NCBI GenBank assembly: GCA_005885555.1
Contig: VAWN01000041.1
Location: forward strand, 5,633 to 69,632
From: Actinomycetota bacterium
GTDB taxonomy: Bacteria; Actinomycetota; Actinomycetes; Mycobacteriales; Micromonosporaceae
Direction of reading: 5' to 3'
Length of the DNA stretch: 64,000 nucleotides
Shown here: positions 1 through 15,264 of the stretch, in pieces
How the letters are laid out: each line of letters opens with the position of its first letter
Position numbering within the stretch: position 1 is the stretch's first letter
The notes under the pieces: generated by a model
What the model saw: the letters and a program-made list of their open reading frames with translations, nothing else
What the model was told of the DNA's origin: nothing
Database searches by the model: none
Translations under genes and position numbers: made by a program

Positions 1-2
1 AA

Positions 3-284
3 TGGCTCGCTGCCGCCGAGAGCGTGGTCGCGCGGCGCGTCGAGGCCATCGTCAGCAACAAGAACCGCGGCGCCTACGCCCGCGCCGCTTCCCTGATCGT
101 CGCCTACGCCGAAGCCCAGACCATCACCGGTACCGGTACCGGTACCGGCAACGGGCACGACTACGTCGCCGGCATGCGCCAGCGATACCCCCGGCACACC
201 GCCTTCCGCGCCGAACTCGACCGTGCCACCCGTGCCTCGGCGCTGGCCGGCCAACCCGTAAGCCACGCCCGCCCACACCGTTAA
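3..284 (+). CDS. C-terminal fragment of a hypothetical protein (cut by window edge)
   Basis: The reading frame is open from the window edge to a TAA at 282-284, so only about 93 C-terminal residues are visible and no start codon can be given. The segment is predicted helical, with a basic stretch (VVARRVEAIVSNKNRGAYA) followed by an alanine-rich helix and a run RQRYPRHTAFRAELD. This resembles the helical-repeat tails of actinobacterial SWIM zinc-finger or similar hypothetical proteins, but that is a weak recollection and no catalytic residue is visible. A GGTACC triplet repeat near 130-148 encodes GTGTGTG inside it. It is convergent with the broken ERCC4-Lsr2 gene, whose remnant ends 35 bp further on. 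The frame reads cleanly to the stop, so the visible part is not obviously decayed. Confidence 0.5.
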   Translation, partial: WLAAAESVVARRVEAIVSNKNRGAYARAASLIVAYAEAQTITGTGTGTGNGHDYVAGMRQRYPRHTAFRAELDRATRASALAGQPVSHARPHR

Positions 285-318
285 GGCGGCCTTTCGCCGT
301 GGCGGCGTCGCGACCGGT

Positions 319-1279
319 TCAGGTGTGCGCGCGGTGATACGCCTGCCGGACCTCGACCGGAATGCGCCCACCACGGCTGACCTCCAACCCCGCGGTGTGC
401 GCCCAGGCCCGGATCTCCGCGGCGGTCGGCGCCGGCGGCGCGGCCGGCTCCGGCAGATCGGCCAGCCGACTCAACCCCGTGCGCGTCATCGGCGGCGTGC
501 GCCGCGGCGGCGGCGGCCAGGAAACCGGTACGTCCACTCCTCGGCCAGCGGCCGGGTGTCGGCGAACACGATCGGGATCGCCGGTCAGGTCACCTGCAAC
601 TCGGCCAGCGCGTCGGCCACCACCGCCGGGCGTACCCGATCCTGCTTGAACACCGCCGCGTACCGGTCCTCCACCACCACCGCCGCGTGCGGCAGCGCCG
701 CCAGGTCCGCCAGCGCGTACTTCAACCTCGCCCCGGTCACCGAGGAAACCAGGTCCACCAGGGACTTGCGTTCCACCGTGGCCACCAGCCGCCCATCCAC
801 CATCACCGCATAGTCACCGGCCGGCAACGGCCGTCGGGTCACCCGCACCCGCTGGTCGGCGAACCGGTACGGGTACTGCTCCCGGATGTCGACCAGCACC
901 TCCAACTCCGGGATACCGGCCGCGCGGGCGGTCGGGCGGCGTACCCCCGGCCGGGACTGCTTGACCGTGCGCGGTGACTGCCAGAACACCACCTCCCGCC
1001 TCCGGGCGGTGGTGAACACGAACTGCGAGCGGTGCCCGTTATCCGGTCCAGCACCAGGTTGATCGCCGCACCCCGGCGCACACACGACCGCACCGGTACC
1101 CGCTCCAACACCTCCACATCGCCCGGTAGGTCCTCGATCGGGTGGCATTACACCGCGTTGGTCCGCGGCCAGGTGCCGCCCGCCTTGAACGCCAGGCCCC
1201 GCTCCCCCAGCGGTACCCACAACAGGTAGGGCAGCCGCGAGTCCGGCTCGGGGTTATGGGCGATCACGAACTGTGCCAT
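319..1279 (-). pseudogene. Decayed ERCC4-nuclease / Lsr2-domain fusion gene
   Basis: Reading down the minus strand from ATG at 1279, the pieces form one ancestral protein in order. First comes an N-terminal segment (MAQFVIAHNPEPDSRLPYLL...). Then comes an ERCC4-type nuclease domain, with VERKSLVDLVSSVTGARLKY and VVVEDRYAAVFKQDRVRPAV. Last is a C-terminal Lsr2-like DNA-binding tail (EIRAWAHTAGLEVSRGGRIP, stop at 319). The frame is interrupted at least four times. A TAA stands where the flanking sequence suggests a Tyr codon (near 1150). There is a one-base shift near 1040. A TGA replaces an expected Trp just after AELQV (near 587). There is at least one more shift in the alanine-rich linker near 530. 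Intact actinobacterial homologues, as I recall them, fuse the same two domains. Lsr2 tails recognise AT-rich DNA and ERCC4 domains cut branched DNA. The nonsense changes plus shifts argue for true decay rather than sequencing error. Confidence 0.85.
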
Positions 1280-1966
1280 GACACTCCAGTCTGCCAGGCA
1301 CGCCTGGGACCTCCCCGGACTACTCGCCCGCAAGATTGTGCCCGCTTCGGACCGCCACCCCACTGGAAGCAACGGTCCCTGCTCGCCGCGGACGACGAAG
1401 AGGAACGCCGAGTCGACGAGCCCAGATCCGTTCTCGATCGGCTCGACCCGGCACCGAAGGTTCTGACCGTGGGCTACGCGTGCAGCGCCCGCCTCGGCCT
1501 GCTCGATGTCTCCTGGGGCGAGGCGGCGCTGGGTGATGATGGGCGAGCTGCACTGGTAGCACGACGAGCAGGTCCCCCCGAACGGACCCGTCGGCCGACG
1601 TTGACTGGACCCCGGTGCAGGTGACGGAGATCAAGCGTTCCGTCGACCAGGCGGTGAGCAGTCGCACCCGAAACGGGGAGGGAATCCAACTCACCTCATC
1701 CATAGGTGTGGAGGATCCCCTCCATAGCTGGCACCTGCGCAGCAGCCGCTGGCCTTATCCGGCGGCTCGCGGCGACGCTCCCCGGACGTATCGGCGAGGG
1801 GCGAGACCTTGCAGCGGGACATGCCCGCCGCGGCGTCGGTCACCGTCCGTCCGCTCATGCCGGCAGGAAACCTTCACAGCTCCGGCCGGGGTGTAAAGGA
1901 TCATCGACGCCACGACGTCGACACCGATGTCAGCGCCCGCGCCGGGGCTGTGGTGGACTGTGCGTC
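1280..1966. other. Gene-poor 0.7 kb stretch, no gene supported
   Basis: This region lies between the start of the broken ERCC4-Lsr2 gene and the GTG chosen for the next plus-strand gene. Open frames exist on both strands, but none shows a recognisable motif, a convincing ribosome-binding site or homologous-looking sequence. The plus-strand frame near 1340-1600 is the longest coherent one and could be a remnant. Given the pseudogene on one side, relic DNA is the simplest reading. I saw no tRNA, terminator or IS end in it. Confidence 0.45.
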
Positions 1967-3232
1967 GTGAGTCCGAAGAGTCGGGGTCGTCCCGCGGGTC
2001 GGGGCCGGCCGCAGCGCAAGCGTCATGGTCCGGTACGCGAGCTGCGCCTGTCCGATCGGGTGCTGCGCGACGCACCGACCATCGCCGGACAGGTCGACGT
2101 GCTCGAGGCCGAGCGGTGGGCCAGCGGGTGGCTCGGCACCGCCTGGGTACAGGCCGGAATGGGCGAGCGCGAGCCGGAGACGACGCTGTGCCTGGAGGTG
2201 GTCGACCGGGCCTGCACCCGCCCGTCCCCGTCCGGCTATGCCGCGGTCGCGGCACTGCGCCGGGTCGCCCCGGCGGGCGAAGAGGGCATGCTCGACGAGA
2301 CGCTGGCGATCCTGGCTGCGACCCAACCCGGCCCGTCCTGGCTCGGCGCGCCCGGTTTCACGCCGGTACGGGCCTTCCGCGCCACCGACGTGTGGGACAG
2401 CGAACGGGTCCTGTTCATCGAGTACGACACCACCGATCCGCACGCCACCACGCACACCCTGATGGCGCAGATCCTCGAACCCGGCGGCACCATGGTCACC
2501 CGGCTAGGCATCCTCCGCCCCGGCGCCGCCCAGCACTGGGACGACCTGCGCGAACCCGACGAGGTACCGATGCCGGTCGTCGAGCAGCCCGTCGAGGCGG
2601 TGCTCGCCGAGCTGGCCGCCGCAATGCGCCAGACGGATATGTACTGGCCCCGTCCCGACGACGAGGACTACGTCGAACTGCGCGCCCTGGCCTGGGCGCG
2701 GTGCCGCCGGTACCTGCCGGACTGGCCGGATGCCCCCGACCTGCCCGACGAGCAACGCCAGGAGCTGCTCGACGCGTTCCTCGCCGACCAGTATCCCGAC
2801 CGCGCCGCCGCCGCGGTTCGTGAGCTGGCCGACCTGTTCATCGACTATGGCGACGGCTACCTCACCCGAGGCGTCCTCGCCTGGAGCCCCGCCTGGGTCC
2901 AGCTGTTCCTGACCGACTGGCTACCCCGCAAGGCGTTCCTCGACGACGCCCAACGCGACGCGCTCGCCGAAACCCTGCGCCGGTGGCTGCGCTTCGCCCT
3001 GCACCGCCGCCACGTCGACCCCCAGTGGATCGAACCGGTCGTCGCCGCCGTCGACGAACACCTGCCCGAATACGAGGCGGCCATCGACGACGAAACGTCT
3101 TGGGGACCGGCCAAGCAGATCGCCGCCGAACTGGCCGCCCGCGGCGTCGACCTCACCGACAAGACCGCCGTCGACGCCGTCATCAGCGAGCTGAACGCCA
3201 CCCGCCTCGCCCAACGCCTCATCGACGGGTAA
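1967..3232 (+). CDS. Conserved actinobacterial hypothetical protein
   Basis: The frame is open further upstream, but protein-like sequence begins at GTG 1967 (SPKSRGRPAGRGRPQRKRHG), giving 421 residues. The first 20 residues are strongly basic, like a nucleic-acid-binding tail. The rest is acidic and helical, rich in W, D and L, for example PDWPDAPDLPDEQRQELLDAF and LFLTDWLPRKAFLDDAQRDA. No catalytic motif, membrane segment or signal peptide is visible. I believe similar proteins are annotated as hypothetical in streptomycetes and micromonosporas, but I cannot name a family. The gene is convergent with the AbiE pair, with only 6 bp between stops, so the two may share termination. Start choice is uncertain because no good ribosome-binding site is seen. 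Confidence 0.7.
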   Translation: MSPKSRGRPAGRGRPQRKRHGPVRELRLSDRVLRDAPTIAGQVDVLEAERWASGWLGTAWVQAGMGEREPETTLCLEVVDRACTRPSPSGYAAVAALRRVAPAGEEGMLDETLAILAATQPGPSWLGAPGFTPVRAFRATDVWDSERVLFIEYDTTDPHATTHTLMAQILEPGGTMVTRLGILRPGAAQHWDDLREPDEVPMPVVEQPVEAVLAELAAAMRQTDMYWPRPDDEDYVELRALAWARCRRYLPDWPDAPDLPDEQRQELLDAFLADQYPDRAAAAVRELADLFIDYGDGYLTRGVLAWSPAWVQLFLTDWLPRKAFLDDAQRDALAETLRRWLRFALHRRHVDPQWIEPVVAAVDEHLPEYEAAIDDETSWGPAKQIAAELAARGVDLTDKTAVDAVISELNATRLAQRLIDG

Positions 3233-3238
3233 CCGGCC

Positions 3239-4141
3239 CTACCGCCAACGCCCGTGGTCCGGATCCCAGCTACCGGCTACGGTTCCCTCCAGAAGCGGGT
3301 CAAGGTATGGCCGTACCTTCGCCAGCGCATCCGCCAGCCTGCGCGCGGTCGGTACGACAGCACGCCGAGCCTCGGCGGCGTAGCCCGGCTCCCACAACGC
3401 CACATCAGGAACGTCGAACCGCGCCGGCAGAGTGATCCGCCGTCGGGCCGCCTCCGAGGCGAGGGCGTCGCCCTGGGCTATGCCGGTCGTGCGCACGTGG
3501 GCAATCAAGCTGACCAGGTCGACCAGGTCCTTGAACCGGGTGGACGGTCTCTGCACGGACCCCTGGCGTTCGATGATCGCGCAGGTCTTGTCGGCGATGT
3601 GGTCGATCAGCGGGTACGCACGGTAGCCGGACTGGCCCAGGCCAGGGATCGCGATGGCGGTGAGGGCGGGTACGTGCTCGGGCGTGCCGGTCATCCGCAC
3701 ACCCTCACCGACGATGTCGATGTGGAACCGAGCCCAGGTCGTGGCGCCGAGGTCGGCGACGACGGGGATACGCAGTCCGGTTGCTGCGTCGGCGACCGGT
3801 CGTGCTGGGCCGGCCTCGAAGCGGAACCAGTCGCCCGCGTCAAGGGCGAGTGCCCTGCGCAGGTCATGCTCTGCCTCTTCCCGGTGCGTCGCGCGGTAGA
3901 TGTCGATGTCGACGGTATGCCGTACCGCGATCCGGCGCGCCAGCATCGCCGTCGCGCCCTTGAGGATCCACGCATCGTCCAGCAGGTACAGGCGAGTCAG
4001 CAGCCGATCGTAGGCGAATTGGCGCTGCAGATCCGGCAGCGGCCAGGATCCGTGCGGGGCGGCAATCGCCCGCAGCCGGTCGGTCAACGCACGGCGAAAG
4101 GCTGCCGGCGTCGCGTATGGCAGTCGCGGCGTGGAGGTCAC
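3239..4141 (-). CDS. abiEii: AbiEii-type nucleotidyltransferase toxin
   Basis: This 300-residue protein belongs to the AbiEii/AbiGii nucleotidyltransferase family, the toxin half of type IV toxin-antitoxin systems that abort phage infection. The polymerase-beta-like core is visible: KGATAM at 61-66 is the GS-like motif, the paired acids are D78 and D80 (TVDIDIY), and a third acid may be D142 (FHIDIV). The family signature DKTCAI...RFKDLVDL lies at 184-209. The start is GTG 4141; it overlaps the antitoxin stop by 4 bp (GTGA), a translational coupling typical of the pair. All core residues are present, so it could be active. Family members are reported or proposed to modify RNA acceptors such as tRNA with nucleotides; the target here is unknown. 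Confidence 0.88.
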   Translation of the reverse strand: MTSTPRLPYATPAAFRRALTDRLRAIAAPHGSWPLPDLQRQFAYDRLLTRLYLLDDAWILKGATAMLARRIAVRHTVDIDIYRATHREEAEHDLRRALALDAGDWFRFEAGPARPVADAATGLRIPVVADLGATTWARFHIDIVGEGVRMTGTPEHVPALTAIAIPGLGQSGYRAYPLIDHIADKTCAIIERQGSVQRPSTRFKDLVDLVSLIAHVRTTGIAQGDALASEAARRRITLPARFDVPDVALWEPGYAAEARRAVVPTARRLADALAKVRPYLDPLLEGTVAGSWDPDHGRWR

Positions 4142-4833
4142 GACGGGGTTCCCTGATGATCGTCGCGGGCCTGTTTCATCCAGGCGTGACGTTCGGGATC
4201 ATCGGTGAGATCCAGCAGCCACTCCAGCAGTGCCAGCCCATCGCCGTCGGCGAGCCCGAACCTGCCGGCGTACGGCGCGATTGCCCGCGCCACCGTCCCT
4301 GGATCGTCATGGACCCCCCGCAGCGCATCGGCGATCACCTGTGCCACGGCCCCGGGGTCCTCGCGGTCGGCGAGCAGGTCGGCTGCCGTACGCGCCGGCC
4401 GGGTGACCGGCATCCCCGCCAGCGTCGTCCACTCATCGCGGGCAAGATCCGCTCGGTGCAGGCGAACATCGGGACGCCGGGACTGCCGCCGGACCGGCAG
4501 GATGAAGTGGTGGACGTCGGCGGGCAGGTGACCGAGGCCGTACACGGCCGCCGCCGACCGGTGCGACACCACCCCCTGCGCTGCGGTGCGCTGCCAGACC
4601 GGGGTATCCGGGCTCAGTTGCAGCCAGGCAGCCCGCAGCGCGAGATGGTCAACCGGGGGTGTACCGCGCAGCCGGTACACTCCATGCGCCACCCGCTCGG
4701 TGGCGTTGTCCCTGGCCAGGCGGGCCAGAGTGGTCCACGCCATCCCTGTGGCCTCCGCTTGCCGACGGGTGAACAGGCCCCACTGGTCCTCGGCCACCTC
4801 GGCCAGGACTTCCAGGGTCACCCCACGTGGCAT
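4138..4833 (-). CDS. abiEi: AbiEi-type antitoxin / transcriptional repressor
   Basis: The protein is 231 residues from ATG 4833. An N-terminal winged-helix segment (WGLFTRRQAEATGMAWTTLA) is followed by a C-terminal AbiEi domain with VSHRSAAAVYGLGHLPADVH and the later TRPARTAADLLAD. AbiEi proteins bind inverted repeats in their own promoter and neutralise AbiEii. An alternative ATG at 4860 would add nine residues. I prefer 4833 because a TATACA element on the minus strand (about 4842-4847) lies just upstream of it, which suits a leaderless or very short-leader transcript. The gene precedes abiEii and overlaps it by 4 bp. A truncated IS remnant lies immediately upstream, so the pair may have arrived with, or survived, an insertion event. 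Confidence 0.85.
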   Translation of the reverse strand: MPRGVTLEVLAEVAEDQWGLFTRRQAEATGMAWTTLARLARDNATERVAHGVYRLRGTPPVDHLALRAAWLQLSPDTPVWQRTAAQGVVSHRSAAAVYGLGHLPADVHHFILPVRRQSRRPDVRLHRADLARDEWTTLAGMPVTRPARTAADLLADREDPGAVAQVIADALRGVHDDPGTVARAIAPYAGRFGLADGDGLALLEWLLDLTDDPERHAWMKQARDDHQGTPS

Positions 4834-4898
4834 GACTGCATTGTATAGCGTTTCCGCCATACTTTGCAGTCCACGATGGGTGGCCAGCCAAGCAACCA

Positions 4899-5618
4899 CT
4901 ACGACGTCACTCCCGCCCGCTTGTGGCCGTTGATGCGCCCGCCCGCTGGAAGATCGACGTAGCCCGCCGGCAGCACCACGCCCAGCTCGCCAGCCCGCCG
5001 CCGCAGCGCACCCGAGGTCGCGGCGTGCCGGATGTTGCGCAGCTGCCTTGCCGTCAACCGGTACCGCTCCCGGGCGACGGCATCGGTGACCGGCCCCACA
5101 GCAACCTCGCCGTCGGCACACATCCGAATCGCCTTGCGGCCCTGCTCGCAGGCCACATGCAGCTTGGTAGTCCAGCCGCCCCGCGACCGGCCCAACGCGT
5201 GATCGTCGGGCTCGTCACCGGCCACCCCACCCGGCGGTTCGACCTGTAGATCCGGCCGCTTGCGAGCACCGGCGGCGTGCTGATGGGCACGGGCGATGGT
5301 CGAGCCGACGCTCACATCCCAGGTGATCAGACCCACCGCATCGGCCCGGCCCTGCAACGCGGACAGAACCCGCGCCCAGGTGCCATCACGCTGCCAGCGC
5401 CGGTACAGCCCGTACACCGAGCGCCAGTGCCCGTAACAGTCCGGCACGTCCCGCCACAGCGCCCCGGTCCGTACCCGCCACCTGATCCCGTCGATCAACT
5501 GCCGCTTACTCCACTTCGGCGGCCGACCTGGCTTCTTCGGCTTGGGCAGCAACGGCTCCAACAGCGCCCACTGCCCGTCGGTCAGGTCGAACCGCCTCGT
5601 CACCGCTACGCTGGCCAC
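4899..5618 (-). pseudogene. Truncated IS5-family transposase joined to an unrelated C-terminal fragment
   Basis: From GTG 5618 (GGAG ribosome-binding site a few bases upstream) the frame encodes a typical IS5-family N-terminus: RRFDLTDGQWALLEPLLP, then GRPPKWSKRQLIDGIRWRVR and the first catalytic region WDVSVGSTIARAHQHAAGAR. After RGGWTTKLHVACEQGRKAI (about 5130) the similarity stops. The expected second Asp and final Glu of the DDE triad are missing, so the enzyme is dead. The last 75 or so residues (RLTARQLRNIRHAATSGALR, later ELGVVLPAGYVDLPAGG) look like the tail of another actinobacterial, possibly mobile-element, protein that is now in frame. The structure implies a deletion or recombination that joined the IS to a neighbouring gene. 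The fused tail might still be translated. Confidence 0.8.
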
Positions 5619-5730
5619 GAGGTCTCCGTGCAGAAGGTTGTCTTGGTCGACAAACCATCTACCGGAGACCTCACCCCATATCGAGCACGACACGCCCTCG
5701 GTCAGCTCAGCATGACTTCTGAAACACGGC
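5131..5730 (-). mobile_element. IS5-family insertion sequence remnant, one end intact-looking
   Basis: The remnant runs from the transposase breakpoint near 5130 to the outer end next to the DUF2075 stop codon. The right end carries a GTGTTTCAGAAGTC-type terminal sequence (minus strand, about 5713-5726), directly followed by CTAG at 5731-5734. The DUF2075 stop codon TAG is part of that CTAG. CTAG would be a plausible target or junction tetranucleotide, but the opposite IS end is lost and target duplication cannot be checked. Boundaries are approximate. Confidence 0.6.
5619..5672. repeat. 10-bp inverted repeat in the IS leader
   Basis: GAGGTCTCCG (5619-5628) and CGGAGACCTC (5663-5672) are perfect inverted copies separated by 34 bp. 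They lie just upstream of the transposase start on the minus strand, and the proximal arm includes the putative GGAG ribosome-binding site. A hairpin in the transcript would therefore hide the transposase start, as in other IS elements that block read-through expression. The role is inferred from position only. Confidence 0.55.
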
Positions 5731-7656
5731 CTAGGGCTCACGCCGCTCATACACGCCCGGTGCGATTCGTTCGTAGCGGGTTTCCAGGCCACGGACCGGG
5801 TGGACGAGTCCGGAAAGGTACGCCCGGGTTTCCGCGTCCGCGGAGTAGATCATCGTTCCACGCATTCCACGCGTCAGCAGCACCTTGTACGTGTTGCGGA
5901 TCAGCCGATCGGCCGCTGCGTCGCTCGTCGCCTTGCCCTTGAGCGCCGGATCCCGGGACTGGTCGCGCCGGGCGACCAGCTGGCCGTCCCGCGCGACGAG
6001 GTCGGGGCCGATGATCACGCCGGACCATTCGTACTCGAAGCCCTGGGCGGTGTAGACGCACCCGACCTGGCCGAAGCCGGCCGGGTCGGTCGCCCAGTAC
6101 GAGCTGCCCGGCGCCTCGCCGATGCTGCGGTCGCTCTTGACGTTCCAGGGCCGGCTCCAGGATCCGATCTGTACGTCGGGCACGAGTGACCCGTCCGCTC
6201 TCGGATCGCTCCAGGGCCAGCAGAACCCGGCCGAGAGCCGGGCCGTCTCACCGTCCGCCTGCCGGCCGGCGAGGAACGCCTCCATCTCCTCGGGTGAGCC
6301 GGCCAGCCGGAGGTCGACGAACCCGTCGCCCTGCCAGACCAAGGGCCCTTCGGAGCCGAGGCCGAGCAGGCGTACCACCCACTGCTCGTACTCCTTGCTG
6401 CCGCCGCACCGGAACTGCCCGTGCAACGACACGATGTCGACGGTCAGGCCCAGGCGGTTGGCGTGGTTCCTGATGACGTCGACGGTACCGGTTTCGCCCG
6501 GCCGTACGACCTGGTGCTCGTCGAGCAGGAACACCGGTACCCGGGCGGCCGAGATCAGCTCGTCGACCTGCGGCCGGCTGCGTTCCCGTACCTCCCGCCG
6601 GGTGTACCGGTTGGCCGACGTCTCCCGGATCCGGTGCGCCTCGTCGCAGACCAGCACCTCGATGCCGTTGCGCCGGGCATCGACGAAGTTGTTGAAGTAC
6701 TTGAACAGGTTCTGCGTCCTGGTCGAACCGCGACCCGCGTACCTGCGCAGGGTCTGGGTGAACGATCGGGAACCGGTGGCGTGCAGGACCGGGTACCCCT
6801 GGCGGGCCATCTCGCCGAGCATGGTCAGGGCGATCACGCTCTTGCCGCTGCCCGGTCCACCGGTCACCACGACGACGCTCTTGCCGTCCTCGTCGCGCGC
6901 GCGTTCCACGGCGTGCAACACCAGCTCGTACGCGACGCGTTGTTCGTCGAGCAGGGTGAAGTGCGCGCGCTGCCGCATGATGTCGGCGGCGTACGTGAGC
7001 AGGTGCTGGCTCGGGCGTACGGAACTGGCCAGGAACCGGTCCGCGGCAGCGGCACCCGGCTCGGGGGACAGGACGCCGCACAGGAAGTCCAGGAACTCGC
7101 CGCGGCGCTGGCTGGTGAACAGCCGGCTGTGCTCGGTGGCCGGCACCGCGAGCAGGTCGCGCACGCCGTCGTCGCTGGCGTTGTGCAGGTACGCCGCGCC
7201 GCGGATGAGGCCCGGCGCCTGCGCGGCGACCCCGAGAAAGTCGGCGAGATACTCGCAGTACCCGCTGACCTGGACGCCGGGGTGCAGCCGCGGCCCGGCG
7301 ACGTGCTCCACCGACACCAGCGTTGACAAGCCCTCGAACGACCAGGCCCGGGACCACTGCTTCAGCTCGACCACAACGTAGGAGTCCGCACCGGTACGGG
7401 GATGCCGTCCGGCGAGTACGACGTCGGCGCGCTTGCTGGTCAGCGGCAGCTTGTACTCGACGATCACCTCGACCCCGGCGAGCCCCGCGTCGGACAGGTC
7501 GTGAGCGAACCCGGCGAGGCTGCGCGACCAGGACACCCGCTCGCCGGGGCCGACGCCCGAGCCACTCATCCGGACGTGTTCGTCAACCCGGTCGACCAGG
7601 GTCCCATTCTCGGCCAGCCGTAACAGGCTGGCCGCCGAAACGCGGAACGCCGACAC
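5731..7656 (-). CDS. DUF2075 protein: PD-(D/E)xK nuclease-like domain plus superfamily 1-type ATPase/helicase
   Basis: This 641-residue protein starts at GTG 7656. Residues about 60-101 carry a restriction-endonuclease-like pattern: D78 in SKRADVVLAG and E97-L-K99 in YVVVELKQW. The ATPase core has Walker A GGPGSGKS (266-273), Walker B VLVCDEAH (334-341) and later helicase-like motifs such as LHGQFRCGGS and CVYTAQGFEYEW. DUF2075 ATPases are related to Schlafen-type and phage-defence helicases, and a nuclease-helicase fusion fits nucleic-acid degradation. Its stop codon coincides with the CTAG at the IS remnant, so the last residues may have changed on insertion. A MazG-like gene lies 95 bp upstream in the same direction; together they look like a functional pair. 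The defence role is inferred. Confidence 0.82.
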   Translation of the reverse strand: MSAFRVSAASLLRLAENGTLVDRVDEHVRMSGSGVGPGERVSWSRSLAGFAHDLSDAGLAGVEVIVEYKLPLTSKRADVVLAGRHPRTGADSYVVVELKQWSRAWSFEGLSTLVSVEHVAGPRLHPGVQVSGYCEYLADFLGVAAQAPGLIRGAAYLHNASDDGVRDLLAVPATEHSRLFTSQRRGEFLDFLCGVLSPEPGAAAADRFLASSVRPSQHLLTYAADIMRQRAHFTLLDEQRVAYELVLHAVERARDEDGKSVVVVTGGPGSGKSVIALTMLGEMARQGYPVLHATGSRSFTQTLRRYAGRGSTRTQNLFKYFNNFVDARRNGIEVLVCDEAHRIRETSANRYTRREVRERSRPQVDELISAARVPVFLLDEHQVVRPGETGTVDVIRNHANRLGLTVDIVSLHGQFRCGGSKEYEQWVVRLLGLGSEGPLVWQGDGFVDLRLAGSPEEMEAFLAGRQADGETARLSAGFCWPWSDPRADGSLVPDVQIGSWSRPWNVKSDRSIGEAPGSSYWATDPAGFGQVGCVYTAQGFEYEWSGVIIGPDLVARDGQLVARRDQSRDPALKGKATSDAAADRLIRNTYKVLLTRGMRGTMIYSADAETRAYLSGLVHPVRGLETRYERIAPGVYERREP

Positions 7657-7751
7657 CGCTGAATGCCCCCGGGCAGCACGAAAGGCTCGTGCGGATGGGG
7701 GGCGTATCCAGCATTTGGAAGCCCGTCGGACCGCTCTGTGACATGGGCACT

Positions 7752-8123
7752 CTAGCGCGGAGCCTTCGCCGCCGTACCACGAGCCCGATCCACCGGGTAC
7801 CGGCGAGCCGAGTCGCGCAGTTTCGCGGTAGCCGCTACCACGAGGTCGATGCCGAGCACGTCAGCGAGCCGCGTCAGGTAGATCATGACGTCGCCCAGTT
7901 CGGCCCGGACCCTGGCGCCGGCGTCCGGATCGGCCATCACCGCCGCCGATTCTGCCGGGGTCAGCCACTGGAGTTCGGCGAGGAGTTCCCCTACCTCGGC
8001 TGCCAATGCCATCGCGAGGTTCTTCGGGGTGTGGAACTGTTCCCAGTCGCGGTCAACGGCAAAGGCCCGCACCGCTTCGGTGAGCGCCGTCAACCCCGGG
8101 ACCGGTTCCGCAGCATGCTCCAT
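7752..8123 (-). CDS. MazG-like nucleotide pyrophosphohydrolase
   Basis: The 123-residue protein has the all-alpha NTP pyrophosphohydrolase signature. EVGELLAELQWL and, about 30 residues later, ELGDVMIYLTRLADVLGIDL supply the four acidic metal ligands (ExxE and ExxD). Such enzymes hydrolyse (d)NTPs to NMP and pyrophosphate, either as house-cleaning or, next to defence genes, to alter nucleotide pools. It is a single-domain form, much shorter than full MazG. It lies upstream of and co-directional with the DUF2075 gene (95 bp gap) and 51 bp downstream of an unknown gene, so one transcript from about 8.8 kb could cover all four. All catalytic acids are present. Confidence 0.85.
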   Translation of the reverse strand: MEHAAEPVPGLTALTEAVRAFAVDRDWEQFHTPKNLAMALAAEVGELLAELQWLTPAESAAVMADPDAGARVRAELGDVMIYLTRLADVLGIDLVVAATAKLRDSARRYPVDRARGTAAKAPR

Positions 8124-8174
8124 GACGGCAATTCAAGCATTTCCCGCGACGGCGACCCGTCGGTGCGCAGGTCG

Positions 8175-8681
8175 TCACCATCCCCACTCGGGCTGGCCGA
8201 TCACCGCGTGGCCGACCTGGGCGGCCAGCCACGAGGCACGCCGTTGCTCCTCCTCGCGGCCACCGACGTGGACGTACACCGTGTGGTCCGGGGCGGGATG
8301 CAGCTCGTCGATGTCGCGGCTGTTGAGGGTCAGCTGGACGTGTGCGTGCTTGCGCTGCTCGAGCAGGTCCAGTTGGGGCAGCGCCGGCCAGCCGGGCAGC
8401 CACCAGGTCACGGTCGCCCGGTCGGTACCGGCGAGTTCGATCCAGCGCAGCGGATCCGCGCCTGCGATGGGCTCGCGGGCCAGCGACACCTCGGCCACCA
8501 GCGGTGGCAGGTCCCGGAGCAGGTCGGCAAGGGGTACCTCGTCGGTGCGGGCGGTCGTCACCATCAGCCCGTCGCCGGACCACGGGCCGATGCCGTCGTA
8601 GCCCGGCAGCAGCGCGCGGACCTGCTCCGCCAGCGCGGCCGGTACCTCGACGTTGATCACTGCGAGCTGCGGCGCCGCCAC
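8175..8681 (-). CDS. Hypothetical protein, 168 residues
   Basis: Start is GTG 8681, placed directly after the TAG of the small upstream gene (TAGGTG), so the two are almost certainly translated from one message. The sequence is soluble-looking, with alternating strands and helices (INVEVPAALAEQVRALLPGY, then HAHVQLTLNSRDIDELH and TVYVHVGG), Pro- and Asp-rich, with no membrane segment, signal or known catalytic motif. I do not recognise the family. The gene sits between the MazG-like gene and the metallophosphoesterase region and may be part of the accessory islet. Confidence 0.65.
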   Translation of the reverse strand: MAAPQLAVINVEVPAALAEQVRALLPGYDGIGPWSGDGLMVTTARTDEVPLADLLRDLPPLVAEVSLAREPIAGADPLRWIELAGTDRATVTWWLPGWPALPQLDLLEQRKHAHVQLTLNSRDIDELHPAPDHTVYVHVGGREEEQRRASWLAAQVGHAVIGQPEWGW

Positions 8682-8834
8682 CTACCGGGCCAGCCCGGGA
8701 TGGCTGAGGGTGAGCGCGCGGAAGTCGACCTCGCCACCTGGTACCTCCGCGAGGCCGATCAGGCGCTGGGCGATCCGGTACGCCTCGTCGATCCGGTCGG
8801 TCCGGACGATCGGCCACGCCTGCGAGTTGCTCAT
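8682..8834 (-). CDS. Small hypothetical protein, 50 residues
   Basis: This short frame runs from ATG 8834 to TAG at 8682-8684. It encodes a compact, mixed-charge polypeptide beginning MSNSQAWPIVRTDRIDEAYR and ending LSHPGLAR. Coding is supported by high G/C third positions and by the exact abutment of its stop with the GTG start of the 168-residue protein. The amphipathic middle (IDEAYRIAQRLIGLAEV) is probably helical. It could be a partner or regulatory peptide of the downstream protein; no function is recognised. Confidence 0.5.
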   Translation of the reverse strand: MSNSQAWPIVRTDRIDEAYRIAQRLIGLAEVPGGEVDFRALTLSHPGLAR

Positions 8835-8912
8835 GGCGCCCGAGTATGCCGGTGGTCGATCGCCGGCCGCACGTGTAATGCTGGCAGCCCACCCCGATCG
8901 AGGAGGGCGCCG

Positions 8913-10097
8913 TTGTCAGCCACAGAAGCGGTGCGGACCCGGCCGGCCCGGCGGTCGCTGCGGTGGATGCGGTTCGCCGCAACGATCACCGGGATCCTGG
9001 TGCTGTTGTTCGGCCTGCCATGGTGGACGGTCGTCGGTGCCGACGCGCGGTGGCCGGTGGCGGTCGCGGTGACCGGTACCGTGCTGTTCGCTGGTGGGCT
9101 GCTGGCGTTTCCGGTACTCATGTATCTGGGGCATGGCCGGCGGCACCGCGACCGGGCGGCGGCGACCGGCGACACGATCCTCGGCGTGATCTGGGTGCTG
9201 TTCTCCTGGGCGTTGCTCGGCAACGTCGCGAAGCTCGTCCTCGCCCTCGCCGGGGTCGCCGATCCGGTGCGGTCGCGCATCGTCGCCGCGGCGGTGGCCG
9301 GGGTGTCGGCGGTACTGGTGGTGTGGGGGTACGTCGAGGCGATGCGGGTACCCCGGATCCGGCGCGTCGACATCGTGCTGCCCCGGCTGGATGCCGCGCT
9401 GGACGGCCTGCGGGTGGTTCTGCTGACCGACACCCACTACGGCCCGATCAACCGGGCCCGCTGGTCGGCCCGGATGGTGGCCGCGGTCAACGGGCTCGAC
9501 GCCGACATCGTCTGCCACACCGGTGACATCGCCGACGGCAGCGTGGCCGAGCGGCGGGCCCAGGCGGCACCGCTGGGCGAGATCAAGGCCCGGCTCGCGC
9601 GCACCTACGTGACCGGCAACCACGAGTACTTCGGCCAGGCCCAGGGCTGGCTGGACCATATGCGGGAACTCGGTTGGGCACCGCTGCACAACCGGCACAT
9701 CGTCGTCGAGCGCGACGGTGCCCGGCTGGTCGTCGCCGGCGTCGACGACGCGACGGCGGGCGGGTCCGGCGTCACCGGGCACAAGGCCGACCACGCGGCG
9801 GCACTGGCCGGGGCGCCCGGTGAGGTACCCGTCGTGCTGCTCGCCCACCAGCCCAAGCAGGTTCGCGACGCCGTCGCGCACGGGGTCGACCTGCAACTGT
9901 CCGGGCACACGCACGGCGGCCAGATCTGGCCGTTCCACTACCTGGTCCGGCTGGACCAGCCGGTCGTGCAGGGACTGTCCCGGCACGGCACCGGTACCCA
10001 GCTGTACACCAGCCGGGGCAGCGGGTTCTGGGGGCCGCCGCTGCGGATCTTCGCGCCGAGCGAGATCTCGGTGCTGACGCTGCGGGTGCCGGCATGA
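8913..10097 (+). CDS. Membrane-anchored metallophosphoesterase
   Basis: TTG 8913 is chosen because GAGGAGG (8900-8906) lies at the right distance upstream; this gives 394 residues. The N-terminal 150 residues contain about four hydrophobic segments (ITGILVLLFGLPWWTVVGA, VTGTVLFAGGLLAFPVLMYL and others). The cytoplasmic or exported catalytic domain follows, with every calcineurin-type motif: TDTHYG, GDIADG, GNHEYF, LLAHQP and SGHTHGGQ. These bind two metal ions and hydrolyse phosphoesters; the family resembles YkuE/YaeI-type enzymes whose substrates can be lipids such as UDP-diacylglucosamine. The stop overlaps the next gene by 4 bp (ATGA), suggesting a two-gene operon. The natural substrate is not known. 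Confidence 0.85.
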   Translation: MSATEAVRTRPARRSLRWMRFAATITGILVLLFGLPWWTVVGADARWPVAVAVTGTVLFAGGLLAFPVLMYLGHGRRHRDRAAATGDTILGVIWVLFSWALLGNVAKLVLALAGVADPVRSRIVAAAVAGVSAVLVVWGYVEAMRVPRIRRVDIVLPRLDAALDGLRVVLLTDTHYGPINRARWSARMVAAVNGLDADIVCHTGDIADGSVAERRAQAAPLGEIKARLARTYVTGNHEYFGQAQGWLDHMRELGWAPLHNRHIVVERDGARLVVAGVDDATAGGSGVTGHKADHAAALAGAPGEVPVVLLAHQPKQVRDAVAHGVDLQLSGHTHGGQIWPFHYLVRLDQPVVQGLSRHGTGTQLYTSRGSGFWGPPLRIFAPSEISVLTLRVPA

Positions 10098-10606
10098 ACC
10101 TGACCGGCGTGCTGACCGAGGCGTTCGACCGGTTGCCCGACCTCGTCCGGTCCGCGGTCGAGGGGCTGAGTCCGCAGCAGCTCACCTGGGCACCCGCCGA
10201 GGGCGCCAACCCGATCGGGTGGCTGGTCTGGCATCTGACCCGGGTACAGGATCACCATGTCGCGGAACTGCTGCGGCGCGAGCAGGTCTGGGTGTCCGGT
10301 GACTGGGCCGGCCGGTTCGGGCTCGCGACGGCCGATCCGGGCAACACCGGGTACGGCCACTCGCCGGCGCAGGTGCGCACGATCCGGCCGGACGGCGCCG
10401 AGGTGCTCGTCGGGTACTACGGGGCGGTCGCCGCGCGCACCCGGGAGCTTATCGGCGGGCTGACCGGGGAGGACCTCGACCGGGTCGTCGACAAGCGCTG
10501 GGATCCGCCGGTCACGCTCGGCGTGCGGCTGGTCAGCGTCCTCACCGACGACCTTGAGCACGCCGGCCAGGCGGCGTACGTCCGCGGCCTGCTGCCGGCC
10601 GGCTGA
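10094..10606 (+). CDS. DinB / DUF664-family protein
   Basis: This 170-residue protein has the DinB four-helix fold pattern seen in mycothiol-dependent transferases. The N-terminal helix FDRLPDLVRSAVEGLSPQQL is followed by PIGWLVWHLTRVQDHHVAEL, containing likely metal-binding His residues, and the C-terminal segment SVLTDDLEHAGQAAYVRGL holds the third His. In actinobacteria such proteins conjugate mycothiol or detoxify electrophiles; the substrate is unknown. It overlaps the metallophosphoesterase stop by 4 bp and is therefore translationally coupled to it. Confidence 0.8.
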   Translation: MNLTGVLTEAFDRLPDLVRSAVEGLSPQQLTWAPAEGANPIGWLVWHLTRVQDHHVAELLRREQVWVSGDWAGRFGLATADPGNTGYGHSPAQVRTIRPDGAEVLVGYYGAVAARTRELIGGLTGEDLDRVVDKRWDPPVTLGVRLVSVLTDDLEHAGQAAYVRGLLPAG

Positions 10607-10607
10607 G

Positions 10608-10847
10608 CTACTCGAACAGCGAGTCGTGCTGGCCGGGTTCGCGACGGTGGCGCTGCACCCGACGGTACTGGACAAAGATCATGTTCACGGCCGCCACCAG
10701 CGCGACGGCGGCGGCGACCCACCCGAGCGCGGGGAAGCCGGCCCAGAACAGCCCGACCGCCAGCGCGGCACAGCCGACGAAGCCGGCGCCGGCCAGGGCC
10801 AGGCGCAGGTTCAGCGCGCTGCGCGGCCGGTCCTGCGGTCCGGTCAC
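10608..10847 (-). CDS. Small two-helix membrane protein (DUF6343-like)
   Basis: The 79-residue protein has a basic N-terminus ([18 protein letters not shown]), two adjacent hydrophobic helices spanning roughly residues 16-58 and a basic, charged C-terminus ([16 protein letters not shown]). The RSALNLRL segment recalls the actinobacterial DUF6343 family, but this is recollection only. It overlaps the stop of the upstream iron-permease-like gene by 4 bp, so the two form an operon. No function is known. Confidence 0.65.
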
Positions 10848-11224
10848 GACCCCTCGCGCTTCTCCAGCCCGACCGCGGCACGCAGTTCCTCGTAGTCCTC
10901 ACGCAGCTCCGGCCGGTCCGCCGCCACCTTCTCCATGAGGTCGGCCAGGCCGTCGGCGATCGCGTTGAGCTTGTGCTGCAGCGCGGCATCGGACCGGGTC
11001 TGGGTGTTCTGCAGCAGCGCGACCAGCAGGAACGTGACGATCGTGGTCAGCGTGTTGATGATCAGCTGCCAGGTGTTGACATCGCGGATCAGGACGAACG
11101 AGGGCAGCCAGATCACCACGAGCAGCACGCAGAAGGCGAAGAACCACGCACCGGACACCACCCGGTCGGCGGCCGAGGCGAAGCGGTCGAACAGCGACAG
11201 GTTCCCGCTGACCTGGGAGGGCAT
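10844..11224 (-). CDS. Low-affinity iron permease family membrane protein
   Basis: From ATG 11224 the protein is 126 residues. It has two membrane helices ([20 protein letters not shown], then [20 protein letters not shown]). The segment [20 protein letters not shown] that follows is characteristic of the bacterial low-affinity iron permease (Fet4-like) family, and the end is an acidic helical tail. An upstream ATG at 11287 would add 21 residues rich in G, A and P; I prefer the shorter form because it matches the usual family length. Transport function has not been shown for the bacterial members I know of. It overlaps the downstream small membrane gene. Confidence 0.78.
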
Positions 11225-11371
11225 GTCGGACTCGCCTGCCGGCCCGGCGGAACCGGCCCGCGGCTGCACGGTACCCGGAGAAACCATGCCGGCACTGTTC
11301 CCGCCGCGCGACCTTGCCAAACGGCACGGTCCGGAGGCGTCGGCCGAGCAGTGCGGCGGGTAGCCTGCGGC

Positions 11372-12022
<651 letters not shown>

Positions 12023-12442
12023 CTAACCGATCGCGTCGAGGCGGGCGATGTTGGCGGCCTCGTCCTGGTCCGGCTCGGTCGGGTCGAGGAACGCCTCGAC
12101 GACCTCGACGGCGACGTCCGGGGCGAGCCGCTTGAGGCTGAGCGCCAGCACGTTGGCGTCGTTCCACCGGCGGGCGCCCTTGGCGATCCACGGTTCCCAG
12201 GCCAGCGCCGCCCGTACCCCGGGTACCTTGTTGGCGGCGATCGCCGTGCCGGTACCGGTCCAGCACAGCACCACGCCGTAGTCCGCTTCACCGGACACCA
12301 CCGCGCGGCCGACCGCCTCACCGATCTCCGGCCAGCTTTCCGACGCCGTGGCCGGGACGACCTCGTGGCCTTTGGCGTTCAGGTAACCGACGACCGCCCG
12401 GGTGGTCTCGTTCTCGTCGTCGGCGCCGTAGGCGATGCGCAT
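12023..12442 (-). CDS. RpiB/LacA/LacB-family sugar-phosphate isomerase paralogue
   Basis: The 139-residue protein has the RpiB fold: N-terminal MRIAYGADDENETTRAVVGY, the nucleotide-like loop VVLCWTGTGTAIAANKVPG and the late segment NDANVLALSLKRLA. The canonical RpiB segment GSDHAG is replaced by GADDEN, and the loop carries WTGTG instead of GGSGNG. It is therefore likely to act on another sugar phosphate than the true rpiB at 20041-20505. A catalytic Cys is possible at VVLCW. It is convergent with the phosphoribosyltransferase, and the GH97 gene begins divergently 74 bp upstream. Confidence 0.82.
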   Translation of the reverse strand: MRIAYGADDENETTRAVVGYLNAKGHEVVPATASESWPEIGEAVGRAVVSGEADYGVVLCWTGTGTAIAANKVPGVRAALAWEPWIAKGARRWNDANVLALSLKRLAPDVAVEVVEAFLDPTEPDQDEAANIARLDAIG

Positions 12443-12516
12443 GCCCCGAGCCTATCGAGTTCCGGCGCCCGGGAGTTCCGCTGGACAGGGACGCATCGTC
12501 CGGTGTCAATGGGCAC

Positions 12517-14373
12517 ATGAAGCGCGCCGTCATCTGCGTCGTCCTGCTGGCCGCGGCCCTGGTCGCCGTACCGCAACTGGCCGCCCGCGCGGCCACCGCG
12601 CGGCAGTGGCAGCTCGGCGGGCCGGGCGGTTCCGGTCCGGTGGCGACCGTCGCGCTGGACGGGAGCGGGAAGCTGTCGCTTGCGGTACGGCGCGGTACGA
12701 CGCAGGTGCTGCAGGCCTCGGCGGTCGGCATCCGGACCGCGGCCGCCGACCTGGGTACCGGGCTAGCCTTCTCCACACGGGCCGACGCGCACGTCACCGA
12801 GCAGTACCAGACGCTGGTCGGCCGGCGCCGCAGCCACACCACCGACGCCAACCAGACCACGCTGAGCTTCACCAAGGGATCCAGCCGGCTCGATCTCGTG
12901 GTGCGCGTCGCCGCCGACGGGGTGGCGTACCGGTACGTCGTGCGGCAGTCCGGCACCGTGACGGTGACCGGGGAGGCGAGCGAGTTCGCGGTACCCACGT
13001 CGGCGGCCGCGGTGCTGCTGCCCTACGCGGACGGGCGCAACGACTACGAGAACGTGCACGTCCACACGACCGTCGGCGCCGCGGCCGCGACCGAGTACGG
13101 GTACCCGTCGCTGTTCCACGTCGGCGACACCTGGCTGCTCATCACGGAGTCGGACCTGAACGGCAGCTACGGGGGTACCCGCCTGGCGTTCAACGGCACC
13201 AGCCACCGGTTCCGGGTCACCCTGCCCGACCCGCAGGAGACCAACCCGCGCACGCTCACCACACCGTGGCGCACGCTGGTGATCGGCGACCTGGCCACGG
13301 TGACCGGCAGCGACCTGGTCACCGACCTGGCCGCCCCGGCGAAGGTCGCCGACACGTCCTGGATCCGGCCGGGCCGGGCCGCCTGGTCGTGGTGGTCGGA
13401 CGGCTCGTCGACCGGAAGCCTTACGGCGCAGGAGAAGTACACCGACTTCGCCGCCCGGATGGGCTGGGACTATGTGCTCGTCGACGCGGGCTGGAGCGCG
13501 AGCTGGGTACCGACGTTGGTGAAGTACGCGCAGGGCAGGCACATCGGCGTGTGGATCTGGACGCGGCAGCCGGACATCGACACCCAGGCGAAGATCAGCG
13601 CCGCCTTCTCGCTGTGGAAGTCGTGGGGCGTGGTCGGGCTGAAGATCGACCACATCCGGTCCGAGCAGCAGGTGCGGATGAAGTGGTACGACCAGGTGCT
13701 GGCGACCAGCGCGCAGGACCGGCTCATGGTGGACTTCCACGGTTCGACGATCCCGCGCGGTACCGAACGCACCTGGCCGCAGGTGCTGACGATGGAAGGC
13801 GTCCGCGGCGCCGAGGCGATCCACAACAAGCCGGGCCGCAACCCGTTCCCCGCCACGCATTACACCGACCTGCCGTTCACCCGCAACCTCGCCGGGTCGA
13901 TGGACTACACGCCGGTCACCTTCGGCGCCAAGCGGACCAACACCGACGCCGCGGAACTGGCCCAGTCGGTGGTGTTCGAGTCCGGGCTGCAGAACTTCGC
14001 CGACAGCGTGGAGAGCTACGACGCGCATCCGGTGGCGGAGCGGTTCCTGCGGCAGGTACCGAACGTGTGGGACGAGACGAAGCTGCTCTCCGGTGACCCG
14101 GACAGCATCGTGGTGCTGGCGCGCCGGCACGGTACCGACTGGTTCGTCGGGGCGATCACCGCGGGACCCGGACGCACGATCGTGGCGCCGCTGGCTTTCC
14201 TCGGTACCGGTGACTGGCTCGCCGACGTCTACCGCGACGGACCCGGCGGCCTGACCGTGACGACGCAGCGGGTGACGAGCGCGACCACGTTGACCGTGAC
14301 CGAGCCGACCAACGGCGGCTTCACCGCCCGGTTGTGCCCCGCGACAGCGGGCGCGACCAGTTGCGGTACCTGA
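12517..14373 (+). CDS. Secreted glycoside hydrolase family 97 (alpha-galactosidase/alpha-glucosidase type)
   Basis: The 618-residue protein begins with a signal peptide (KRAVICVVLLAAALVAV, cleavage after ARA near 28). The N-terminal beta-sandwich of GH97 follows (roughly 30-280), then the TIM barrel, with SWIRPGRAAWSWWSDGSSTG and VDAGWSASW. In the retaining clade the nucleophile is an Asp; here GLKIDH places Asp at about 378, and the Glu of TMEGVRG at about 427 is the likely acid/base. The protein thus looks like a retaining alpha-galactosidase rather than an inverting SusB-type glucosidase. It ends in a C-terminal sandwich. Codon choice is remarkable: Val-Pro and Gly-Thr pairs are nearly always written GTA CC and GGT AC. 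A strong hairpin follows the stop. Confidence 0.88.
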   Translation: MKRAVICVVLLAAALVAVPQLAARAATARQWQLGGPGGSGPVATVALDGSGKLSLAVRRGTTQVLQASAVGIRTAAADLGTGLAFSTRADAHVTEQYQTLVGRRRSHTTDANQTTLSFTKGSSRLDLVVRVAADGVAYRYVVRQSGTVTVTGEASEFAVPTSAAAVLLPYADGRNDYENVHVHTTVGAAAATEYGYPSLFHVGDTWLLITESDLNGSYGGTRLAFNGTSHRFRVTLPDPQETNPRTLTTPWRTLVIGDLATVTGSDLVTDLAAPAKVADTSWIRPGRAAWSWWSDGSSTGSLTAQEKYTDFAARMGWDYVLVDAGWSASWVPTLVKYAQGRHIGVWIWTRQPDIDTQAKISAAFSLWKSWGVVGLKIDHIRSEQQVRMKWYDQVLATSAQDRLMVDFHGSTIPRGTERTWPQVLTMEGVRGAEAIHNKPGRNPFPATHYTDLPFTRNLAGSMDYTPVTFGAKRTNTDAAELAQSVVFESGLQNFADSVESYDAHPVAERFLRQVPNVWDETKLLSGDPDSIVVLARRHGTDWFVGAITAGPGRTIVAPLAFLGTGDWLADVYRDGPGGLTVTTQRVTSATTLTVTEPTNGGFTARLCPATAGATSCGT

Positions 14374-14392
14374 CCGCAACCGCACCGCAACC

Positions 14393-14438
14393 GGCCCGGG
14401 TCCGGGCAACCGAACGGCACCGCCGACGGACCCGGGCC
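14393..14438. terminator. Perfect 12-bp hairpin after the GH97 gene
   Basis: GGCCCGGGTCCG (14393-14404) pairs with CGGACCCGGGCC (14427-14438) around a 22-base loop, 20 bp after the GH97 stop and before the CHAP gene. There is no clear T tract on the plus strand, as is common for actinobacterial terminators. It should end or attenuate the GH97 transcript. Confidence 0.7.
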
Positions 14439-14502
14439 CGCTCTTGCCGGCCCGTTTCCTGGTACCCGTCACCGCAACTCCTCACCAACGGGCGGTCAGT
14501 TG

Positions 14503-15264
14503 ATGTCTTTCACGGGTCTCGTCAAGGCGCTGTTCCTTCCGGCCCTCGCGGGTGCCGCGCTCGCCGCACCGCTGCTGGGCGCCACGCCGGCGTCGGCCGC
14601 GACCTGCCAGGCCGACCCGTACAACGGGGTCTGCGTCGCCACCACGAGCTACACCGTGAATACCAAGGTCGCCGTGCAGCGCACGCCGAAGACCGGCAAC
14701 GTGAGCCGGTACGTCGCCGCCGGCTCGGCGGTCGCGGTGCTCTGCAAGGTCACCAACGGCGGTACCGCCGACGGCCTGACCAGCACGACCTGGGACGCGA
14801 TCGTGGGCGGCGGCTGGGTCTACAACGCCTACGTCAACGTCTCCCCCTACACCCGCGTGTGCGGCACCGCCGGCCCGGCCGTGACCTACAGCGCCACGGC
14901 GTACCCGTGGCAGGCGGTGGACACCTTCGTCAGCGACGGGCACGGGTACTACCAGGGCGAGTGCGTCTCGTTCGCCGCCTGGGCAGTGCGTACGGACGGC
15001 CGCGCGCACACCAAGTCCCCCGACTTCATGATGAACGACTACCAGTGGACCGGCGCGTACGTCGACGCCACCCCGCACGCCGGTGACGTCGCGCAGTGGG
15101 ACGCCGGCCGCAACGGCGCCGGCTCGTCCGGGCACGTCGCGTACGTGACCGCGGTCAACGCCGACGGTTCGGTGACGGTCAACGAGTTCAACTGGGGCAA
15201 CTTCCACCGCTTCAACGTCCGGACGTTCGCCCCGAACACGCCGAGCCGGTACCTCCACTTCTGA
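14503..15264 (+). CDS. Secreted CHAP-domain peptidoglycan amidase/endopeptidase
   Basis: From ATG 14503 (a TTG directly before it is an alternative) the protein is 253 residues. A signal peptide (VKALFLPALAGAALAAPLLG, ending near ASAAT) leads into an SH3-like segment of about 100 residues (SYTVNTKVAVQRTPKTGNVS...). The C-terminal CHAP domain has the catalytic Cys in YYQGECVSFAAWAVR, His in SGHVAYV and the polar partner in VNEFNWGNF. CHAP enzymes cleave peptidoglycan cross-bridges or the amide to the glycan. The gene lies between two hairpins, so it is probably transcribed alone. It likely serves wall remodelling together with the surface proteins on either side. Confidence 0.88.
   Translation: MSFTGLVKALFLPALAGAALAAPLLGATPASAATCQADPYNGVCVATTSYTVNTKVAVQRTPKTGNVSRYVAAGSAVAVLCKVTNGGTADGLTSTTWDAIVGGGWVYNAYVNVSPYTRVCGTAGPAVTYSATAYPWQAVDTFVSDGHGYYQGECVSFAAWAVRTDGRAHTKSPDFMMNDYQWTGAYVDATPHAGDVAQWDAGRNGAGSSGHVAYVTAVNADGSVTVNEFNWGNFHRFNVRTFAPNTPSRYLHF

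Follow-up and report, generated by a model that had tools for sequence, protein, structure and literature searches.

The window described here is a stretch of 64,000 nucleotides from a Micromonosporaceae bacterium (phylum Actinomycetota; contig VAWN01000041.1 of assembly GCA_005885555.1, positions 5,633 to 69,632). It contains two neighbouring genes. One encodes a small MazG-like pyrophosphohydrolase, the other a larger protein in which a predicted nuclease is joined to a helicase, below called the nuclease-helicase. The pair is a real and widespread two-gene module, and apparently one that has not been described. Its most likely role, and on balance a fairly probable one, is action against phages or other incoming DNA. 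We infer this immune function; the competing explanations are weighed below. The parts of the pair are:

7752..8123, minus strand: MazG-like gene, an open reading frame (ORF) of 123 amino acids, the upstream member of the pair
5731..7656, minus strand: nuclease-helicase gene, an ORF of 641 amino acids with a GTG start, the downstream member
6952..7656, minus strand: predicted N-terminal PD-(D/E)xK domain, residues 1-235, with E67, D78, E97xK99 and Q129xxxY133
5836..6882, minus strand: helicase core of the SLFN-g3 family, residues 259-607, with Walker A at 267-273 and Walker B at 337-342
7657..7751, minus strand: intergenic stretch of 95 bp between the two genes, without a terminator-like site

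An earlier interpretation made from the letters alone (the sequence-only reading) had placed the nuclease-helicase 95 bp downstream of the MazG-like gene, and both ORFs were confirmed at these coordinates and on this strand. A scan of 5200-8800 for terminator-like and sigma-70-like patterns, which excludes other actinobacterial promoter types, returned none. The gap without a terminator-like site is consistent with a single transcript for both genes. Such a transcript is plausible also because relatives of the pair show short same-strand spacing or overlap. The window's genome has a single match to the 641-residue protein and a single match to PF12643, the MazG-like family.

Conservation of the gene pair

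Relatives were collected with a profile scan over one genome per species, which confirmed at least 118 of them among 588 pattern matches. The counts that follow are over the best 80 nuclease-helicase loci, each with at most 10 kb of flank per side, which comes to 1.25 Mb of flank in total. The MazG profile used to search these flanks was built from the loci themselves.

A MazG gene lies within 300 bp of the nuclease-helicase in 37 of the 80 loci: 28 copies precede it on the same strand, 6 follow it, and 3 are on the opposite strand. Elsewhere in the flank there is only one further MazG copy, 4.9 kb from its helicase. The sequence-only reading had proposed conserved adjacency in other genomes as a check, and these 37 loci provide it, in bacteria as well as archaea. 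The bacterial pairs are from Actinomycetota, Bacillota, Bacteroidota, Pseudomonadota, Spirochaetota, Verrucomicrobiota, Elusimicrobiota and candidate phyla, the archaeal ones from Woesearchaeota.

The spacing of the upstream same-strand pairs is tight. Measured from the end of MazG to the likeliest start of the helicase, it is at most 30 bp in 28 of 42 rows, which represent 40 loci pooled from several scans, two being counted twice since their MazG match is in two pieces. Nine of these rows are overlaps, and eight of the overlaps measure 4 bp. Chance adjacency is ruled out by this tight same-strand spacing together with the 37 adjacent copies against a single one elsewhere in 1.25 Mb.

The pairwise distances of MazG and helicase correlate, with r=0.55 over 54 pairs and none of 2000 permutations as high; this correlation partly reflects shared host ancestry. 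On a quick tree, made without a mixture model and with second helicase copies scored as 'none', the label for MazG presence requires no fewer than 16 changes, whereas shuffled labels require about 28.5. A MazG-helicase fusion protein would prove the partnership directly, but none was seen among the ORFs of the 142 loci that carry either profile.

When all neighbours within 5 kb are clustered, MazG is the commonest (30 loci). A further ORF of the helicase family comes second, near 11 of the 80 loci (in L055 and L099 these are possibly pieces of one split gene), and any other cluster reaches at most 6. Six loci in Streptomyces and Lentzea (L038, L045, L049, L050, L057 and L062) are without MazG and have a second, diverged nuclease-helicase nearby.

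The window's own family was scanned separately, in 150 Micromonosporaceae genomes with the 8 best candidates per genome scored for the helicase. A helicase match at E 1e-3 is present in 34 of these genomes, a number that counts fragments and weak P-loop matches, and 42 of the genomes carry 45 MazG matches (E 1e-8). A manual comparison of positions puts 15 of the 45 at most 250 bp away from a helicase gene or its remnant. No MazG remnants were seen within the 1.5 kb flank of intact Micromonosporaceae helicases that lack MazG.

The two proteins

The 123-residue protein passes the MazG-like family PF12643 (E=1.3e-7, 32.2 bits with a cut-off of 27), and is under the cut-off for classical MazG, PF03819 (19.5 bits vs 22). 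Its nearest solved structures are dCTP pyrophosphatase 1 (DCTPP1), also known as RS21-C6, at E 4e-22 and without gaps. The match to 6sqw (E 4.3e-22) covers 115 residues, query 6-120. In a MazG-like alignment of 65 rows, which includes the window copy twice, E43, E46 and D78 are present in all rows, and E75 and K101 in 64. We take these five to be the metal and catalytic residues. Judged by its sequence, the small protein belongs to the MazG-type enzymes, has all of its metal site and should be an active pyrophosphatase, and what had been called 'MazG' is, on the same grounds, of the DCTPP1 (dCTP-pyrophosphatase) type.

The substrates of DCTPP1-type enzymes are dCTP and its modified forms. A preference of the window enzyme for dCTP or modified dCTP may be expected from these relatives. 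The likeness to DCTPP1 is in the gapless match and in the metal-site residues that are kept. The difference is in the setting: in animals DCTPP1 is a free-standing cellular enzyme, whereas the gene of the window enzyme adjoins that of a nuclease-helicase.

The 641-residue protein matches PF09848 over residues 259-607 and over the full model (positions 1-354 of 354), with 275.8 bits against a cut-off of 24 and E=7.7e-82. The current name of this family is 'Schlafen group 3, DNA/RNA helicase domain' (SLFN-g3). It was formerly named DUF2075, and the old name appears in plasmid annotations. The Walker-type helicase core that the sequence-only reading described is there, with GPGSGKS from residue 267 and CDEAHR from 337, within the PF09848 match. 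What it called DUF2075 is, going by this match, the Schlafen-group-3 helicase domain. An alignment of 87 sequences, in which the window is included and whose members were picked for a near-full-length profile match, has invariant Walker A (G266, G269, G271, K272) and Walker B (D338, E339) residues.

A search of structure sequences in the Protein Data Bank (PDB) with the entire nuclease-helicase gave no meaningful match. The full protein was modelled with AlphaFold2 at a mean predicted local distance difference test score (pLDDT) of 83. Structural alignment of this model with VIA finds helicases of superfamily 1 (SF1), with UvrD at Z 20.3, human SLFN11 (7zel_A) at Z 19.4 with a root-mean-square deviation (rmsd) of 3.7 over 279 aligned residues, and SLFN14 (9uie_B) at Z 18.7, rmsd 3.8, 283 aligned. 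The helicase of the large protein and the helicase end of SLFN11, a human antiviral protein, belong to one family.

At the N terminus, E67, D78, G83, E97, K99, P126 and Q129 are invariant in alignments of 19 and then of 87 sequences, and E67, D78, E97, K99 and Q129 also in one of 80. Y133 is retained in at least 90% of the 87. This E, D, ExK, QxxxY pattern is that of RecB-type PD-(D/E)xK nucleases. The sequence-only reading had picked out D78, E97 and K99 as a PD-(D/E)xK-like site, and the residues at these positions are the invariant ones.

It had also proposed to look for a restriction-endonuclease fold. Residues 1-235 were modelled from the 80 aligned sequences with a pLDDT of 94. Foldseek matches of this domain are weak: the best is the NucS/EndoMS-type repair endonuclease 2vld with E 2.6e-3, and nothing is below 1e-3. 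The fold became clear only through the VIA structural re-alignment, and not from Foldseek or the PDB sequence search. VIA gives ten chains with Z of at least 8, led by Can2 (Z 9.5, rmsd 3.4, 133 aligned) and similar chains. Lower rows are EndoMS (7.6), Card1 (7.3) and BstEII (6.9), then BsoBI, SduA, NucC, Bax1 and finally HamA (5.1), where a single match with Z below 8 carries little weight. Going by their titles, we take all of these to be PD-(D/E)xK enzymes. Taken together with the invariant active site, the structural matches support the PD-(D/E)xK assignment. Model and alignments indicate that the large protein is a PD-(D/E)xK nuclease fold with a full active site, followed by an SF1 helicase with intact Walker motifs. 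The PD-(D/E)xK domain is predicted to cleave nucleic acid.

Genomic context and competing explanations

In several places the pair or its helicase is found among mobile or defensive genes. On a 34 kb viral contig (L032:39-9246) the pair has tail/endolysin genes on one side and, on the other, an integrase whose neighbour is a dus gene, which is a typical site for prophage cargo. A helicase match is present in 37 plasmid records, of which six were examined, with an incomplete gene table: MazG is annotated adjacent to the helicase in two (Priestia, Halalkalicoccus), about 6 kb off in one (Hymenobacter), and not annotated nearby in three. The Priestia pair is among genes for an ABC-three-component system, a restriction endonuclease, MutT, and an N-6 methylase with S-subunit, resembling type I restriction-modification. 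The Hymenobacter helicase is near a restriction endonuclease and a DNA methyltransferase, and on a Streptomyces plasmid a family helicase without MazG is near cas3.

A PLD-DUF3427 helicase, matched at L089 by the PADLOC model mREase_IV, has relatives in 8 of the 80 loci. A Clostridia locus (L090:1007-8050) has in one string a DCTPP1-type MazG, a PLD-SF2-DUF3427 helicase, MutT, a second small protein and the nuclease-helicase. This second small protein is pyrophosphohydrolase-like by eye, with zero Pfam matches.

In the window, further downstream of the nuclease-helicase, are the AbiE pair and the insertion sequence scar that had been noticed from the sequence, now identified as follows:

3239-4141: AbiEii, with Pfam and PADLOC matches
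4138-4848: AbiEi, with Pfam and PADLOC matches
within ORF 4899-5792: remnant of an IS5-family transposase, covering model positions 2-144 of 258

An ORF on the minus strand (585-1220), close to this variable stretch, has an ERCC4/XPF-type nuclease domain (PF02732, E 2.4e-14); its resemblance to Hef in NCBIfam is far under the cut-off. Rfam has zero matches in window positions 1-16000.

Enrichment near defence genes was another check that had been proposed. At E 1e-15, the 20 pair regions (139 genes) match 167 PADLOC models and 20 control regions (133 genes) match 38, where overlapping models and not genes are tallied. The controls come from the genomes that supplied the pair regions, and four controls lie on a different contig. 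Long proteins were dropped before the count, 1 of 140 on the pair side and 7 of 140 on the control side. The pair side is raised by methyltransferase models and by kinase-like ones (PD-T4-6), and 19 of the 25 models displayed for the control side are Cas, from CRISPR genes in the control set. Since the simple gene caller missed MazG in some regions, a MazG-bearing ORF may itself have been included among the neighbours. For the 37 pair loci, the 131 closest genes match 69 PADLOC models, a count without a matched control and with genes over 900 amino acids excluded. The enrichment is present in these numbers but only moderate, and single contexts are striking.

Several facts weigh against a defensive pair, or limit how far the pairing goes, and that tally of overlapping models is one of them. 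PADLOC (2023) gives a strong match only for the AbiE pair among eight window proteins, and zero models match the 123-residue protein at E 0.1. Actinobacterial neighbourhoods of the pair are mixed with ordinary metabolism. A helicase match is rare in phage records (4 of 50,697), and a scan of viral contigs with a single protein found 1 relative. Among the Micromonosporaceae MazG matches, 30 of 45 are more than 250 bp from any helicase match, two of these being within 1.5 kb of one.

In the larger set, 42 of the 80 loci have no MazG in the available flank (3 of the 42 have less than 500 bp of flank on one side), and one has the distant copy already mentioned. This rules out a universal partnership. 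About half of the nuclease-helicase family is without a MazG neighbour, and the MazG partner is therefore not obligatory: the nuclease-helicase can work without MazG, or with another partner. Partners may also be exchanged. The MazG of L023 (1043-3321) is 77% identical to that of L009, where the helicase is a close relative of the window's; the two helicases are only 35% identical, and the L023 MazG sits on the downstream side of its helicase. The sequences suggest that a partner was swapped at its site.

If the pair is an immune module, it might work as follows. By analogy with SLFN11 and Hachiman, the helicase would load onto single-stranded or replicating foreign DNA. ATP-driven movement would bring the putative nuclease to this DNA, which it would cut. 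The MazG partner would meanwhile lower dCTP or remove base-modified dCTP. Loss of dCTP could starve phage replication and repair, or protected cytosines could be removed. Nucleotide hydrolysis and nucleic-acid degradation would in this way act jointly, as the sequence-only reading had supposed.

The pair may instead serve DNA repair and the cleaning of the nucleotide pool. Damaged or mismatched DNA would then be processed and modified or damaged dCTP removed, with no immune role. In Foldseek the nuclease domain is closest to 2vld, a repair endonuclease. A MutT-type NUDIX, a cleaner of oxidised nucleotides, also recurs nearby: it is in 5 of the 80 loci, and the model PDC-S07 matches 4 of the 131 neighbour genes of the 37 pair loci. 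Yet PADLOC itself lists two of the parts as defence candidates, the related helicase and the L111 MutT. Patchy occurrence (34 of 150 genomes), plasmids, the viral contig and gene decay all suit an accessory defence gene better, and repair appears rather unlikely.

Gene decay also bears on another alternative, that of a guarded toxin. Here the nuclease-helicase would be an autotoxic effector of abortive infection and the pyrophosphatase would restrain it or protect against it, for instance by holding a nucleotide signal at a low level. In 4 of the 15 Micromonosporaceae genomes with both genes side by side (L195-L198), the nuclease-helicase has a truncation, a frameshift or an internal deletion and the MazG match is open, which hints, but no more than hints, that the cost lies with the nuclease-helicase. 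The antidote is often the first gene of a toxin operon, and the MazG-first order of the pair resembles this. Four cases of decay are few, however, and MazG is possibly useful alone. G095 is a possible reverse case: its MazG match is partial, covering model positions 55-110, and there is a long helicase frame about 3 kb away. An obligatory antidote would moreover forbid the 42 loci with a nuclease-helicase and no adjacent MazG. A guarded toxin seems an improbable account.

Solitary MazG copies and solitary helicases both occur, as they would if the two genes had no functional link and just collected in the same variable islands, but the same-strand spacing of at most 30 bp and the 4-bp overlaps recur in distant phyla, and with 37 adjacent copies to one elsewhere such an absence of any link is hardly credible.

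Related systems and meaning

The defensive module proposed here resembles a number of known systems. Human SLFN11, and the group III Schlafens generally, share with the nuclease-helicase an N-terminal nuclease, a C-terminal helicase, and the helicase fold itself. SLFN11 is not known to have a MazG partner. The N terminus differs, being PD-(D/E)xK in the window protein and not the Schlafen tRNase core: at E 0.1 there is no Pfam match to the Schlafen core nuclease (AlbA_2-like) in the nuclease-helicase, nor was the SWAVDL motif found in it. The helicase domains of SLFN11 interact with single-stranded DNA, according to a passage in PMC11615386.

In Hachiman (HamAB), a nuclease and a DNA-sensing helicase work together, as a section of PMC12278908 has it, and HamA is a weak structural match to the window's nuclease domain (8vxy, Z 5.1). 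The nuclease and helicase of Hachiman are separate proteins however, without a pyrophosphatase, and no Hachiman model in PADLOC matches the window proteins at E 0.1.

The DefensePredictor study (PMC13092281) names MazG among its predicted, experimentally unproven defence domains, so that a MazG pyrophosphohydrolase has been predicted to be defensive before. The main-text passages do not name a nuclease-helicase or DUF2075 partner. They cite a 2015 study of nucleotide-centric systems for the prediction of several such domains.

In the PADLOC candidate PDC-S41, as in the window protein, an SLFN-g3 helicase comes after an N-terminal region. The window nuclease-helicase scores 55.4 bits against this 657-position model, for which no cut-off is given, in two stretches of which the best is 534-605; the helicase of L111 scores 818 bits there, and 230 bits for PF09848. 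PDC-S41 marks a separate, related branch. Its partner differs from the window's MazG/DCTPP1-type enzyme in being a NUDIX/MutT, which lies directly beside the helicase in 3 of 9 loci, six of the nine being seen with only 1.5 kb of flank:

L100:4633-7178: NUDIX/MutT with PDC-S41-branch helicase
L111:6800-9330: the same pairing, in which the MutT is PADLOC PDC-S07
L194:1402-3773: the same pairing

This pairing is analogous; the hydrolase fold is unrelated to that of MazG. The nuclease can change too. In L135, L137 and L140 a GIY-YIG domain, over the Pfam cut-off, replaces PD-(D/E)xK at the N terminus, with MazG directly upstream. The constant element is the SLFN-type helicase, while nuclease and hydrolase vary.

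No paper was found on DUF2075 together with MazG, and for DUF2075 alone or MazG with Schlafen nothing was relevant by title and start of abstract. In the literature searched, which covers few subscription papers and preprints, no paper was recognised as a description of the pair; the 2015 nucleotide-centric study or a 2020 study of immune components may mention it. This agrees with the sequence-only reading, which knew of no named system, and PADLOC (2023) offers only a distant helicase candidate. What is apparently new is the conserved nucleotide-hydrolase partner, added to a known kind of nuclease-helicase defence.

More tentatively, the pair could be part of an unnamed and widespread class of immunity in prokaryotes. 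In this class a relative of the human SLFN11 helicase that bears a nuclease would have its own nucleotide-pool hydrolase, a DCTPP1 relative or a NUDIX/MutT. This wider class is possible, though doubtful. If it exists, the DCTPP1 relative would go with PD-(D/E)xK or GIY-YIG nucleases and NUDIX/MutT with the PDC-S41 branch. Swappable nucleases and hydrolases would then serve one principle, which is to cut replicating foreign DNA and to remove its (modified) nucleotides.

Should the pair prove to be an immune system, it would couple the destruction of foreign DNA to control of a deoxynucleotide pool, and a single gene pair that occurs in bacteria and archaea alike would encode both. One ancient prokaryotic module would then unite homologues of the helicase domain of SLFN11 and of DCTPP1, both of them human proteins. 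Because DCTPP1-type enzymes act on dCTP and its modified forms, the pair may also have a bearing on how hosts respond to phages with modified cytosine in their DNA.

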